From positions 1-61,803 of the forward strand of contig JADGGZ010000002.1 of the NCBI GenBank assembly GCA_019689675.1: DNA of 61,803 nt, written 5' to 3'. The notes beneath the pieces were generated by a model that was not told the origin of the DNA, did no database searches, and saw only the letters and a list, made by a program, of their open reading frames with translations. A program made the position numbers and the translations under genes. The stretch is from Rhodospirillales bacterium (GTDB lineage: Bacteria; Pseudomonadota; Alphaproteobacteria; ATCC43930; CGMCC-115725). Shown piece by piece: positions 10,833-58,627 of this stretch (position 1 is the first letter of the stretch; each line of letters opens with the position of its first letter).

Positions 10833-11336
10833 ATGGATAGTTTCCTCGAACTCAAGCTCGCGCTCTTCCGCATGCTCGGGAAGGACGCGTGGGAGATGCT
10901 CGCCGTAACGGGCGAGGCGCTGGTCCTCCTTCCGGCGGCCGCGATCATCGCCGGAAGGCTGTGGCTGCGGGGCAGCAGGGCCGAAGCTCTCTCATGGGGC
11001 ACGAGCCTTCTCCTCTGCATCGCGACCGTCGGGCTCATGAAGCTCTCGATCGGCGATTTCAAGTGGACGCTCTACGGGCACACGTTCAACGCCAAGGGCT
11101 TTCCGAGCGGCCATGCCGCGATGGCGACGGTGTTCTGGGCGGGGCTCGCGCTCATAGCCAGGGATCGCCTCGTCGGCGCGATGCTGCTCGTGCCGATTCC
11201 GCTCGCGAGTCTTTCGGTGCTGGTGTTGTGGTGGCACCACACGCTCGACATTGTCGCGGGCCTGGCGATCGGCGCTGCCGCGCTCCTGCCGCTCGCGCTC
11301 AGAGTGCCGCGTCGATCGCCGCGTTCAGCCGCCTGA
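10833..11336 (+). CDS. PAP2-superfamily membrane protein, degenerate motifs
   Basis: The 167-residue protein has about five hydrophobic segments and the PAP2 motif 2 (FPSGHAAMA). Motif 3 is recognisable as [16 protein letters not shown], with the His-x3-Asp pair kept, but the arginine of the usual SRxxxxxHxxxD is Val here. The KxxxxxxRP motif 1 is not convincing either. A lipid-phosphatase role is possible but doubtful. ATG 10833 is the first start after epmA. The 3' end overlaps the end of thiE on the other strand (11299-11336). Confidence 0.75.
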
Positions 11337-11934
11337 CGCCTGCCGCCGGCCCGTCCGGGTCGTTCCAGACCGCGCCGATGACGGCGAGGAAATCAGCACC
11401 GGCCTGCACGAGAGCGGCGCAATTCTCGGCGGTGATGCCGCCGATCGCGACGGACGGGACGGTCATGAGCTCGCTCCACCAGCGCAGGAGCTCCGGCTCG
11501 GCGCGGATCTTCGCCTCCTTCGTCGCCGTCGGAAAGAAGGCGCCGAAGGCGACATAGTCCGCGCCCTTCTCGGCGGCTTCCATCGCGAGATGGCGGCTGG
11601 CGTGGCACGTCACGCCGACGATCCGCCCGAGCCCCAGAATGCGCCGCGCCTCCTCGTAGGGCGTGTCCTCCTGCCCGATATGCACGCCGTCGCAGCCGGT
11701 CGCGAGGGCGAGATCGGCACGATCGTTCATGAGAAAGGCGACGCCCCGCGATTGCGCCACGGGCCGCAGCGCGTCGGCAGCGCGGCGGATCGCGTCGTCG
11801 TCCGCGCCCTTGAGGCGGAGCTGGACGCACGCGACGTCGCCCGCGTCGAGGGCTGCGGCGAGGGCGCGCGAAAACGCCGCCGGCTCGAGCGCCGGCGGCG
11901 TGATCAGATAGAGGCGGGTGCGAGCGGGTTTCAG
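11299..11934 (-). CDS. thiE: Thiamine-phosphate synthase, apparent CTG start
   Basis: The enzyme joins the thiazole and pyrimidine halves of thiamine. The 211-residue TIM barrel opens RLYLITPP and shows the pyrophosphate and substrate motifs [27 protein letters not shown] and AVIGAVW. There is no ATG, GTG or TTG in frame close before RLYLITPP. The nearest ATG downstream is in FLMNDR, too late for the fold. CTG 11934-11932 overlaps the fba stop as CTGA, exactly like other couplings in this window, so a CTG start is inferred. Confidence 0.88.
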
Positions 11935-12860
11935 GCCTCGCCCTTGTAGATCTTGATCATCTGGTCGAGCATCTTCAGCGCCTCCTCGCGCGGGCGCTGG
12001 AAGGTGTTGCGGCCGATGATCGAGCCATTGCCGCCGCCGTCGCGGATCGCGCGGGCCTCGTTGTAGATCCCCTCGAGGTCCTTCGCCTCGCCGCCCGAGA
12101 AGACGACGATGCGCTTGCCGTTGAAGCAGGACTGGACGACGTGGCGGAAGCGGGCGACCGGCGTCTTGATGTCGATCTTCTGCGCCTCGTAGACCTTCTT
12201 GGCAGCGTCGAGTTCGAGCGCCTCCGTCGGCGGCTTCACCTTGATGATGTGCGCTCCGAGGAGGGCCGCCATGTGTGCCGCGTAGGCGCAGATGTCGATC
12301 GCGGTCTCGCCGGCCTTCGAAAGCGCGCCGCCGCGCGGGTAGGACCAGATGACGACAGCTAGGCCATAGGACTTCGCTTCGCGCGCGAGCTCGGCCACTT
12401 CCTCGATCATGTCGAACGCGGCGTCGGAACCGGGATAGATCGTGAAGCCGATCGCCGAGCAGCCGAGCCGGAGCGCGTCCTTCACCGAGGCGGTGACAGC
12501 CTGGTTGGCGTTCTCCTTGGCGCGCGAAAGGCTGTTCGAGGAGTTGACCTTGAGGATGGTCGGGATCTGCCCGGCATAGGTCGCCGCCCCGGCCTCGATG
12601 AAGCCGAGAGGCGCCGCGTAGGCGGACAGCCCGGCGTCGATCGCGAGCTGGAAATGATAGTGAGGGTCGTAGGCCGGCGGGTTCGGGGCGAAGCTCCGCG
12701 CCGGCCCGTGCTCGAAGCCCTGGTCGACGGGCAGGATAACGAGCTTGCCGGTGCCGCCGAGGCGGCCATGCATCAGAATGCGGGCGAGGTTCGCCTTCGT
12801 TCCGGGATTGTCGCTCTCGTACCACGAGAGCATCTTGCGGACGGTCTCGGTAAGCTGCAT
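11931..12860 (-). CDS. fbaB: Class I fructose-bisphosphate aldolase, DhnA/FbaB type
   Basis: This 309-residue protein belongs to the archaeal-type class I aldolases. The Schiff-base lysine lies in [10 protein letters not shown] (K207 or K209), and the phosphate-binding end is [11 protein letters not shown] with [16 protein letters not shown]. It splits fructose-1,6-bisphosphate in central metabolism. ATG 12860 gives [14 protein letters not shown] and is preferred to longer upstream starts. Together with gap it makes a glycolysis/gluconeogenesis operon that continues into thiE. Confidence 0.94.
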
Positions 12861-16546: not shown

Positions 16547-18307
16547 TCAGGGCGACGCCGCGCCGGCGGCGGCCTTCGGGTCGATCTCCAGGCCGACCTT
16601 GGTCACGCGATCTCCGTCCACCTCGCGGACGATGAGCTCGGTGGGCCCGAGGCGAAGCCGGTCGCCGACCACAGGGTGCTCGTTGAGCTGCTCGGCGAAA
16701 TGATCGGACACGCGCCGATCCGAGATGCTCGCGGGAACGGGGAAGCCGTAGGTGCGCGCGATCGCGCCGAGCGTCGTCGCCCCGTCGAATACGAACTCGC
16801 CGAAGAAGTCGCGCTCGGCCGGCGGCAGCTCCTTCGGCGCCGAGAAGAGCGGGTCGAGCTGCCGCACGCGGTCCGGCGGCGCAAGGAGATAGACATAGTC
16901 CCCCGCGGCAATCGGTCCGCTCTCGGCACCCATCAGGAGCCGCTTCTCGCGGGCGACCATGACGACGCGGGCCCAGCTCGGCAGCTTCGCGCCGCGGGCG
17001 ATCGGACTTCCGGCCGCGACAGGGTAGCCCACGAACTCCTCTTCGACCTGTCCCGGTAGCTCGAAGTCGACCCGGGGCCCCGGCTCCGTTCGTCGCGGCA
17101 GCGCCACGCCCAGACGGCGCGCGACGGGCGGCAGCGTCCAGCCCTGAACCACGAGAGAGGTCAGCACCACGACGAACGCTACGTCGAAATAGAGGAAGGC
17201 GTTCGGCAGGCTGGCGAGCATCGGCACCGAGGCAAGGAAAATGGCGACCGCGCCCCGAAGCCCGACCCAGGCGACAAAGGCGAGCTCGTTCGGCGAGAAC
17301 CGGAAGAACCGAAGACAGATCCAAACCGCCACGGGGCGCGCGACGAGGATCATCGCAACGGAGATCAAGAGCGCGCCCAGCAAGTGCTCGAGCATTCGCG
17401 AGGGAGAGGCGAGAAGCCCGAGCAGAACGAACATCACGATCTGACAGAACCAGGTGATCGCATCCTGGAAGCCGAGGACGCTGGTCGCGCCGCGGGTACG
17501 CCGATTGCCGAGCACCACCCCCGCGAGATAGACGGCGAGAAAGCCGCTGCCTTCGAGCGCCGACGTGCTTCCGTAAACGACGATCGCACTCGTGCTCGCG
17601 AACAGCGGCTGAAGCCCGGAGGGCAGAGGCAACCGGTTGAGGAGGAGCGAGATCGCCACCCCTCCGGCAACCCCGAAAGCGCCGCCGATGAGCGCCTGCT
17701 CCGCGAGTATCCGAACGATCATCCAGAACGATTCGCCTGCCTCGGGCTGCTGGACGGTCATCGTGGAGAGAAATTCGGTCAGCACGATCGTCATCAGGAT
17801 CGCGGCCGGATCGTTCGTGCTCGATTCCACCTCGAGCGTGGCGCCGACGCGCTGCTTCAGCTGAAGGCCGCCCGCATGAAGCAGGAAGAACACCGCCGCG
17901 GCGTCCGTGGAAGCCACGATCGCCGAGAGGAGCAGCGCCTCCAAAAAAGAAAGCTGGTCGAAGACGAGAAGGGCGAAGCCGCTGGTGATGAGCGCGGTGA
18001 CGAGGACGCCGATCGTGGCGAGCAGGACCGAAGGCCGGAGCGCCACCCGGAACGCGTCGAGCCGGGTCCGCATGCCGCCGTCGAAGAGAATCACCGCGAG
18101 CGCGAGCGAGCCGAAGAGATAGGTCGCCCGATAGTCGTCGAAGGCGATGCCGCCCGGGCCGTCCTCGCCCGCCAGCATGCCGATGACGAGAAAGACGAGG
18201 AGGAGGGGCGCTCCGATCCGGGAGGCGACTAGGCTGGACAGTATTCCGACGAGCACCAGGACCGCGCCGATCAGAAGAACGGCGTTGAGGTACCCGATGC
18301 TTTCCAT
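16547..18307 (-). CDS. nhaP2: CPA1 cation/proton antiporter with RCK_C and CorC/HlyC domains (NhaP2/CvrA type)
   Basis: The 586-residue protein has about 12 membrane helices (1-395) of the CPA1 Na+(K+)/H+ exchanger family, with the STDAAAVFFLL and ESSTNDPAAI core motifs. A TrkA-C-like domain follows near 410-480 and a CorC/HlyC transporter-associated domain near 500-586. This three-part arrangement is that of NhaP2/CvrA potassium/proton antiporters. It sits convergent with the PtsN-like gene. Confidence 0.9.
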   Translation of the reverse strand: MESIGYLNAVLLIGAVLVLVGILSSLVASRIGAPLLLVFLVIGMLAGEDGPGGIAFDDYRATYLFGSLALAVILFDGGMRTRLDAFRVALRPSVLLATIGVLVTALITSGFALLVFDQLSFLEALLLSAIVASTDAAAVFFLLHAGGLQLKQRVGATLEVESSTNDPAAILMTIVLTEFLSTMTVQQPEAGESFWMIVRILAEQALIGGAFGVAGGVAISLLLNRLPLPSGLQPLFASTSAIVVYGSTSALEGSGFLAVYLAGVVLGNRRTRGATSVLGFQDAITWFCQIVMFVLLGLLASPSRMLEHLLGALLISVAMILVARPVAVWICLRFFRFSPNELAFVAWVGLRGAVAIFLASVPMLASLPNAFLYFDVAFVVVLTSLVVQGWTLPPVARRLGVALPRRTEPGPRVDFELPGQVEEEFVGYPVAAGSPIARGAKLPSWARVVMVAREKRLLMGAESGPIAAGDYVYLLAPPDRVRQLDPLFSAPKELPPAERDFFGEFVFDGATTLGAIARTYGFPVPASISDRRVSDHFAEQLNEHPVVGDRLRLGPTELIVREVDGDRVTKVGLEIDPKAAAGAASP

Positions 18308-56984: not shown

Positions 56985-57827
56985 ATGGCTTTTGCTCGCA
57001 TTTCGCGACTCCTCGGGCGCGAACGTCGCCGGCCGCTCGTGGCTGTGATCCGCTTCCACGGCGTCATCGCGCCGCGCGGACCCCGCACGCTCTCCCTCGC
57101 CGGCATGGCCGAGGCGATCGAGCGCGCCTTCGCGCTGAAGCACGTCGCCGCGGTGGCGCTCGTCATCAACTCGCCCGGCGGCTCTCCCGTGCAATCAGCG
57201 CTTCTCCACCGGCGCATCCGCCAGCTCGCGGCCGAGAAGAGCGTGCCGGTCCTCGCGTTCACCGAAGACGTCGCGGCATCGGGCGGGTACTGGCTCGCCT
57301 GCGCCGGGGACGAGATCTGGGCCGAAGAGACCTCGATCGTCGGCTCGATCGGCGTCGTCACGGCGACGTTCGGCTTCAAGGAGGCGATCAGCCGTCTCGG
57401 CATCGAGCGACGGCTCTATACCGCGGGCGAGCGTAAGCGCCTGCTAGATCCTTTCCTCGAAGAGAATCCGGAGGGCGTCGAGCGGCTGAGGGCGGTCCAG
57501 AACGAAATGCATGCGGCGTTCAAGGAGCTCGTCCGCGCGCGCCGGGGCTCGCGGCTCGCGGCAGACGACGGGACGCTCTTCAACGGCGACATCTGGACCG
57601 GACGCACCGCGCTGAAGCTCGGCCTCGTCGACGGAATCGGGGATCTGCGCGGCGTGCTGCGCGAACGGTTCGGCCCCGAGGTGCGCCTCCGCCCCATCGA
57701 GAGCCGACGCCGCCGACGGTGGCTTCCCTCCGTCCCGTTCCGCACGCGCCGCGACCCGCTGGATCTCGTCGCCGACCTCTTCGCCCTCGTCGAGGAGCGC
57801 CTTCTCTGGGCGCGCTTCGGTCTCTGA
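56985..57827 (+). CDS. S49 family signal-peptide peptidase-like serine protease
   Basis: The 280-residue protein is a single-domain S49 (SppA/SohB-like) protease: INSPGGSPVQSALLHRRI, the nucleophile Ser in FTEDVAASGGYWLACAGDEI, and SIVGSIGVVTATFGFKEA. The base Lys is probably in YTAGERKRLLDP. No long membrane anchor is visible; the start may be ATG 56985 or a TTG 9 bp before. It overlaps the lipoprotein hydrolase gene as CTGA. Confidence 0.88.
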   Translation: MAFARISRLLGRERRRPLVAVIRFHGVIAPRGPRTLSLAGMAEAIERAFALKHVAAVALVINSPGGSPVQSALLHRRIRQLAAEKSVPVLAFTEDVAASGGYWLACAGDEIWAEETSIVGSIGVVTATFGFKEAISRLGIERRLYTAGERKRLLDPFLEENPEGVERLRAVQNEMHAAFKELVRARRGSRLAADDGTLFNGDIWTGRTALKLGLVDGIGDLRGVLRERFGPEVRLRPIESRRRRRWLPSVPFRTRRDPLDLVADLFALVEERLLWARFGL

Positions 57828-58627
57828 GGCGGATCGCGGCACGCGCCCTCGTGATGGGGTTCTTACTCGCCGCTCTCACCGCCTGCGACCTCGACCGCCG
57901 GCTTCTCTACTTCCCGGACACGAGTCGTCCGGTCCTCGCCGCGACCGGGCTGCGCGACGCTCAGCAGGTCCAACTCGTCACCGAGGACGGGCTCGCCCTT
58001 CTCGCATGGTGGATGCCGCCGCGCCCCTCGCAGCCAGTGATCGCGTATTTTCACGGCAACGGCGGTCACATCGGGTACCGCGCCGAGCGGTTCCGGAAGC
58101 TGGCGCTTCTCGGCTTCGGCGTGCTTCTCGTCGAGTATCGCGGGTATGGCGGGAACCCCGGCAGCCCGAGCGAAGAGGGGCTCTACCGCGACGCGCGCGC
58201 GGCCCTCGCCTTTCTGGAGCAGCAAAACGTGCCGCCCGAACGCCTCGTCCTCTACGGCGAGTCGCTCGGCACCGCGGTCGCGGTGCGGATGGCGAGCGAG
58301 CATCGGGTGGCGGCGCTCGTGCTTGAATCGCCCTTTACCAGCATCGAGGCGCTCGGACGTTACCACTATCCTTTTCTTCCCGTGGCCCTCGTCCTGCGAG
58401 ACCGCTTCGACGCCGCCTCGGCGATCGCGGAGGTGAGGGCGCCGATTCTCGTGCTCCACGGCGAGCAGGACGAGATCGTGCCCGCGAAATTCGCGCGCGC
58501 CCTCTTCGAAGCGGCGCCGGAGCCGAAGGAGGCGTGGTTCGCCCCCGAAGGCGGCCATGTCGATCTCCGCGAGCACGGCGCCTTCGAAGTGGTCGCCGAT
58601 TTCCTCCGCAGGCGGGTTCGACTCTAG
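57824..58627 (+). CDS. Lipoprotein alpha/beta hydrolase (ABHD13/17-like), apparent CTG start
   Basis: The 267-residue protein has a lipoprotein signal ending LTAC with the lipid-accepting Cys21. An alpha/beta hydrolase fold follows: oxyanion FHGNGGHIGYR, nucleophile Ser147 in LYGESLGTAVA, acid Asp in LHGEQDEIV and His in GGHVDL. CTG 57824 overlaps the S49 stop as CTGA and supplies the basic n-region RRIAAR. The later ATG 57854 would leave the signal without positive charge. It is probably membrane-anchored on the periplasmic side. Confidence 0.85.
   Translation: MRRIAARALVMGFLLAALTACDLDRRLLYFPDTSRPVLAATGLRDAQQVQLVTEDGLALLAWWMPPRPSQPVIAYFHGNGGHIGYRAERFRKLALLGFGVLLVEYRGYGGNPGSPSEEGLYRDARAALAFLEQQNVPPERLVLYGESLGTAVAVRMASEHRVAALVLESPFTSIEALGRYHYPFLPVALVLRDRFDAASAIAEVRAPILVLHGEQDEIVPAKFARALFEAAPEPKEAWFAPEGGHVDLREHGAFEVVADFLRRRVRL

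Follow-up and report, generated by a model that had tools for sequence, protein, structure and literature searches.

The gene of an alpha/beta hydrolase located in the window (the whole analysed stretch of 61,803 nt) probably begins with a CTG codon that overlaps the stop codon of the S49 peptidase gene preceding it; we assign a probability of roughly 0.6 to its translation from CTG 57824 by termination-reinitiation. CTG initiation in such -4 overlaps is better supported by another gene of the window, thiE, than by the hydrolase, and comparison of thiE loci across the bacterial class gives good evidence that a gene can have its functional start at a CTG in this position. Such initiation is rare and is no general habit of the organism. 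The hydrolase junction comprises the following features:

56985..57827, plus strand: gene of S49 peptidase (SohB/SppA-like; PF01343, 7.7e-30; TIGR00706, 8.4e-38), product ending ...WARFGL*
57719..57721, plus strand: GTG in the hydrolase frame, within the peptidase gene; a signal starting here would exceed 50 residues
57824..57827, plus strand: CTGA, a -4 overlap of candidate start CTG (57824-57826) and peptidase stop TGA (57825-57827), seen in the sequence
57824..58627, plus strand: alpha/beta hydrolase gene (Hydrolase_4/Abhydrolase_1, N-terminally anchored family; PF12146, 1.3e-20), 267 aa if CTG is used
57824..57886, plus strand: predicted lipoprotein signal, (L/M)RRIAARALVMGFLLAALTA followed by C, with LTAC lipobox at 57875-57886 and Asp at +2, judged from the sequence and from lipoprotein-like genes of the same genome
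57851..57856, plus strand: rival canonical starts GTG 57851 and ATG 57854, seen in the sequence

The peptidase gene terminates with GGT CTC TGA, the last C and the TG of the stop codon making up CTG. The candidate start thus shares two bases with TGA, both genes are co-directional and the hydrolase is in frame with CTG, as the preliminary description had stated. Read from CTG, the hydrolase frame is L-RRIAARALVMGFLLAALTAC-DLDRRLLYFPD... and remains open to 58627. The alternative ATG start considered in that description is also present at 57854; the GTG immediately 5' of it (57851) and the GTG at 57719 had been omitted. The product, of the serine aminopeptidase S33-like type, exceeds the family thresholds, with 74.2 bits for Hydrolase_4 (curated cut-off 27) and 56.1 for Abhydrolase_1 (cut-off 25.8); PF00561 is matched as well. 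According to the family scan, an RraA-like gene comes next after the hydrolase and ZapE is a divergent neighbour. Peptidase orthologues in relatives are about 60-67% identical and conserved at the C-terminus, where the terminal leucine (...FGL) is kept in nearly all relatives checked. The C preceding TGA is due to this conserved leucine and represents one codon choice among several. Taken alone, CTGA at the peptidase/hydrolase junction is ordinary.

The N-terminus of the hydrolase is more informative. Translation from CTG gives MRRIAARALVMGFLLAALTA ahead of C, that is a 20-residue signal with n-region MRRIAAR, three arginines, LTAC and cysteine at residue 21. The ATG form has a 10-residue signal (Cys index 10) devoid of K/R, its first arginine lying past the cysteine. 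For comparison, 28 lipobox matches were collected from 1.29 Mb of the genome and about 19 of them were judged credible by eye. These candidates have a Cys index of at least 12 and, in nearly all cases, K/R before the cysteine; the ATG form is an outlier among them. When general lipoprotein features are considered (K/R n-region, hydrophobic h-region, lipobox cysteine at about residue 13-30), the CTG form fits and the ATG form fails. Both earlier statements, a normal lipoprotein signal from CTG and no positive charge from ATG, are thereby borne out.

Length of the N-terminus points in the same direction. Hydrolase homologues (about 47-60% identity) mostly have some 20-30 residues, including a hydrophobic anchor, ahead of the conserved LLYFPD; the window hydrolase has 26 if counted from CTG and 16 if counted from ATG. 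The anchor is likewise present in relatives that are 52-60% identical. The closest named relative of the hydrolase is from an uncultured alphaproteobacterium, and mainly for this reason the bacterial class is probably Alphaproteobacteria. The 27-nt stretch between CTG and GTG 57851 is mildly coding (+2.4, Markov gene-finder score). By signal peptide and N-terminal length, CTG is the most plausible hydrolase start. That the product is a lipoprotein is only plausible: a conserved lipobox was not found in hydrolase orthologues, most of which have a plain transmembrane anchor, and a cysteine at similar place occurs in a few relatives (L017, L022, L023, L138, L141, L149 and L150). The choice of start decides whether the protein carries a working export signal, as far as this can be predicted.

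Starts at canonical codons have to be weighed against CTG. The hydrolase might start at GTG 57851 or ATG 57854, CTGA then being a coincidence of leucine-ending peptidase, TGA stop and open frame; we consider this possible but less probable than the CTG start. These codons are situated merely 27 and 30 nt 3' of CTG, CTGA followed by an open frame occurs at chance frequency in the genome sample (see below), and CTG was about 10-fold below TTG in an E. coli expression reporter (Hecht et al., as cited in PMC11983097). Moreover, thiE genes of two other genomes (G005 and G026) have CTGA and then GTG at +27, the spacing seen in the hydrolase; in these the GTG is apparently the real start, its position being occupied by ATG in a congener (G015). 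On the other side, either codon would yield a signal of 10-11 residues without K/R, unlike the credible lipoprotein candidates of the same genome, and would leave the N-terminus some 10 residues short of that in most homologues. Neither is preceded by a Shine-Dalgarno-like 4-mer; none was found upstream of CTG 57824 either, and Shine-Dalgarno strength was therefore dismissed as a discriminator of the candidates. The earlier proposal of a CTG start is accordingly favoured by signal and length, with part of the probability left to the two codons downstream. Since none of the relatives in which the S49-hydrolase gene pair was sought keeps it, the hydrolase start lies beyond the reach of homology.

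A hydrolase start within the peptidase gene, at GTG 57719, is very unlikely. This codon is canonical and belongs to the same open frame, but its use would imply a 109-nt overlap and a long Arg-rich leader that far exceeds the anchors of homologues, and the coding-score optimum is not located there. Overlaps other than 1 or 4 nt were found in 39 of 799 co-directional gene pairs (the gene finder allows up to 60 nt), so long ones look rare.

The preliminary description had supposed, on the strength of two CTGA junctions within 62 kb, that the organism uses CTG initiation through stop-start coupling, and that such junctions should be commoner genome-wide than chance. We counted them in 1.286 Mb of the 4.22-Mb genome, taken in stretches, in which 1195 genes were called by a periodic Markov gene finder. 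The +1 frame, which is unable to start at the stop codon, served as control. Of 440 gene ends with C before TGA, 71 are followed by a coding CTG frame and 67 by a coding control frame (p = 0.78). The corresponding numbers are 107 and 6 for A-TGA ends, 101 and 22 for G-TGA ends, and 16 and 18 for T-TGA ends, TTGA being likewise without enrichment. Because the excess of ATGA and GTGA is recovered, the comparison does detect real overlaps. CTGA is thus not an enriched junction type in the genome sample, and the expectation fails for the junction class as a whole. Coding frames devoid of a canonical start show no significant excess either, being present at 5 of the 71 CTGA junctions and in 4 of 113 cases in the control frame (p = 0.31). 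Since the control frame produces them too, counts alone prove nothing. At many CTGA junctions, ATG or GTG close downstream is the likelier start. A few genuine CTG starts would escape notice in such a count. The step from two junctions to a habit of the organism was therefore invalid; the notion of coupled CTG initiation itself receives support from thiE.

The second CTGA was not named in the preliminary description; most likely it is that of thiE on the minus strand:

11931..12860, minus strand: class I fructose-bisphosphate aldolase gene (NF006704, 5.5e-167), upstream of thiE, ending ...GAG GCC TGA
11299..11934, minus strand: thiE, thiamine phosphate synthase (vitamin B1; TIGR00693, 5.1e-55), candidate CTG start 11934-11932 within CTGA

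No ATG, GTG or TTG precedes the conserved first strand RLYLIT in the window thiE. The first canonical codon is GTG 11760, at residue 59 and well beyond this strand. Position 1 of the TIGR00693 model corresponds to residue 7 counted from CTG, and matches to TIGR00693 and PF02581 set in at residues 7-8. No other thiE match was found in the genome. At thiE, therefore, no canonical codon explains the N-terminus, whereas the hydrolase retains GTG 57851 and ATG 57854, with an atypical signal. Inspection by eye for a frameshift that would fuse aldolase and ThiE showed no slippery heptamer at the junction of this genome. A literature search for thiE with CTG start returned nothing relevant.

Does the same arrangement occur in other members of the class? 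Altogether 135 thiE loci were collected by best hits, phylogeny being allowed for solely by collapsing lineages, and 73 of them lie directly behind the aldolase gene. Clear starts in the -4 slot of these 73 pairs are GTG (15), ATG (3), TTG (3) and CTG (9, all lacking a canonical codon ahead of RLYLIT). A canonical start is absent in 12 pairs, nine of which have in-frame CTGA, as against 8 of the 61 others (one-sided Fisher p = 3.8e-5). The association persists when our own genome is left out (p = 1.2e-4) and when, in addition, only one of two genomes from the same genus is kept (p = 4e-4). The nine startless genes with CTGA span seven families including that of the window (f1, f72, f65, f136, f98, f80 and f58), and their reading frames are open. 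In a tenth startless thiE (L329), CTG directly follows a TAA stop. At this aldolase stop, several genomes of the window's family have GTGA and others TTGA. Two genomes of one genus differ here: G136 has GCT TGA (TTG), G244 GAC TGA (CTG), both behind the same CAGGGGAAC. Just 5' of CTG, many of the nine genes have a purine-rich stretch, which is part of the last aldolase codons. Taken together, coupled CTG initiation at thiE is well supported by this comparison.

A wrong base arising from sequencing or assembly could make thiE, and perhaps also the hydrolase gene, appear to lack a canonical start. The assembly is fragmented (423 contigs), and startless frames arise in the control frame too, as noted above. 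The thiE CTGA recurs in eight further genomes, which brings the families to seven, and the reading frames are open; such an error is therefore hardly credible.

We infer CTG use at either gene, ribosome reinitiation, coupling and lipid modification from sequence features, and the following scheme is proposed in this sense. A ribosome that ends peptidase synthesis at TGA 57825-57827 would sit over CTG and restart with initiator fMet-tRNA; the hydrolase made in this way would carry the n-region MRRIAAR and be either anchored or of lipoprotein type. ThiE synthesis would begin likewise, from CTG 11934 on the minus strand. The last upstream codon and the start codon of a -4 overlap have one base in common, third in the former and first in the latter, so at 68% G+C this base may drift to C. 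GTGA or TTGA could turn into CTGA by one change, often synonymous in the upstream gene, and the CTG start would survive where weak coupled initiation suffices. In its widest form, the proposal would hold for the class: CTG would be regularly used in the -4 slot, C-ending codons repeatedly converting GTGA or TTGA, reinitiating ribosomes accepting CTG with possible help of an A29-U41 tRNA, and annotation truncating or missing such genes. We would put even odds on this extension.

The tRNA just mentioned is the initiator tRNA-fMet encoded at L413:108-184 (plus strand). Its anticodon stem reads UCAGG/CCUGA, with A29-U41 replacing the usual G29-C41 (pairs read by eye). By the same inspection, all initiator tRNA copies that were matched, from 28 of the 61 genomes searched, show A29-U41. 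Being common to all matched copies, it does not explain why CTG is present at particular genes; that it may help CTG acceptance is a lead and not a result. In the initiator tRNA-fMet variant M1, an altered anticodon-stem pair weakens discrimination against CUG in vitro, and IF2 restores it (PMC11497404). The tRNA of this organism resembles M1 in departing from the three G-C pairs and differs from it in the pair concerned, which is 30-40 in M1 and the neighbouring 29-41 here.

CTG starts and -4 coupling are each already known; the new part is recurrent CTG in the -4 slot. At overlapping genes with canonical starts, termination-reinitiation is an established process (PMC6728339, PMC12548453). 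As in those -4 NTGA overlaps, start and stop share two bases here, the start falls within the upstream stop and there is no intergenic region. The difference is in the first base, which is C here, the described examples being ATGA and TGATG, and in the present arrangement being known from sequence alone. CTGA, GTGA and TTGA are not mentioned in PMC6728339, and the review PMC12548453 writes NTGA and has no CUG. Rare CTG starts have been documented elsewhere. The rep gene of the IncFIB replicon starts with CTG, as shown by N-terminal analysis and CTG-to-CTC mutation, and is misannotated in databases at a GTG 14 codons downstream (PMC11983097). Such a downstream GTG trap resembles the hydrolase case. 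Unlike the hydrolase, however, rep is an enterobacterial plasmid replication gene, it is not described as a stop-start overlap and it needs a good ribosome-binding site. According to a figure quoted in PMC11983097, 20 of nearly 85,000 annotated genes have CTG starts. In S. Typhimurium, CUG-initiated N-terminal proteoforms were detected in vivo by Ribo-RET (PMC11005335). They too exemplify CUG as a bacterial start codon, but they are alternative forms of annotated genes rather than products of sole starts at -4 junctions. A handful of start switches to CUG has also been reported (PMC5622118).

Standard annotation, which considers ATG, GTG and TTG, probably misses CTG starts in the -4 slot. If CTG works there, a fourth start codon must be allowed in this slot when coupled genes are annotated, and truncated proteins such as ThiE would be correctable from their genes directly. 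Gene pairs that differ in the start between close relatives, such as TTGA in G136 and CTGA in G244, would then form a natural test set for stringency of reinitiation, the question being whether reinitiating ribosomes check the start codon less strictly than those initiating afresh.

Several further junctions of the genome were inspected. A PAS/HisKA histidine kinase gene behind that of S-adenosylhomocysteinase (L106:3364, plus strand) plausibly starts with CTG of CTGA, as a start at the following canonical codon would truncate its membrane segment. The last codon of the upstream gene is TAC (tyrosine), so the first start base can be only C or T without changing this residue. The kinase orthologue in G020 and G014 starts at GTGA-type positions, the comparison covering the kinase only. 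Two other candidates are weaker. A polysaccharide deacetylase gene (L090:11487, minus strand) has CTGA and no canonical start before its membrane segment, a region where homologues do not align. At the DUF498/secF junction (L172:2789, minus strand), relatives have ATG-Glu-Leu and this genome has ATA-Glu-Leu; CTG thus has a rival in an ATA start or a sequence error, and this case was discarded as a clean CTG start. A GTP-cyclohydrolase-like gene (L074:16849) and several others were rejected on account of likelier starts downstream.

Three frames (L083:8850 and L078:9864, plus strand; L195:2111, minus strand) display strong coding signal right after the upstream stop and lack CTGA as well as any canonical start within reach. 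They may reflect frameshifts, assembly errors or non-canonical starts of another kind. In the window itself, the ATG (18307) of the gene at 16547-18307 (minus strand) falls inside the neighbouring gene upstream, and a CTGA occurs in frame at 18274 (18271-18307), which chance explains.
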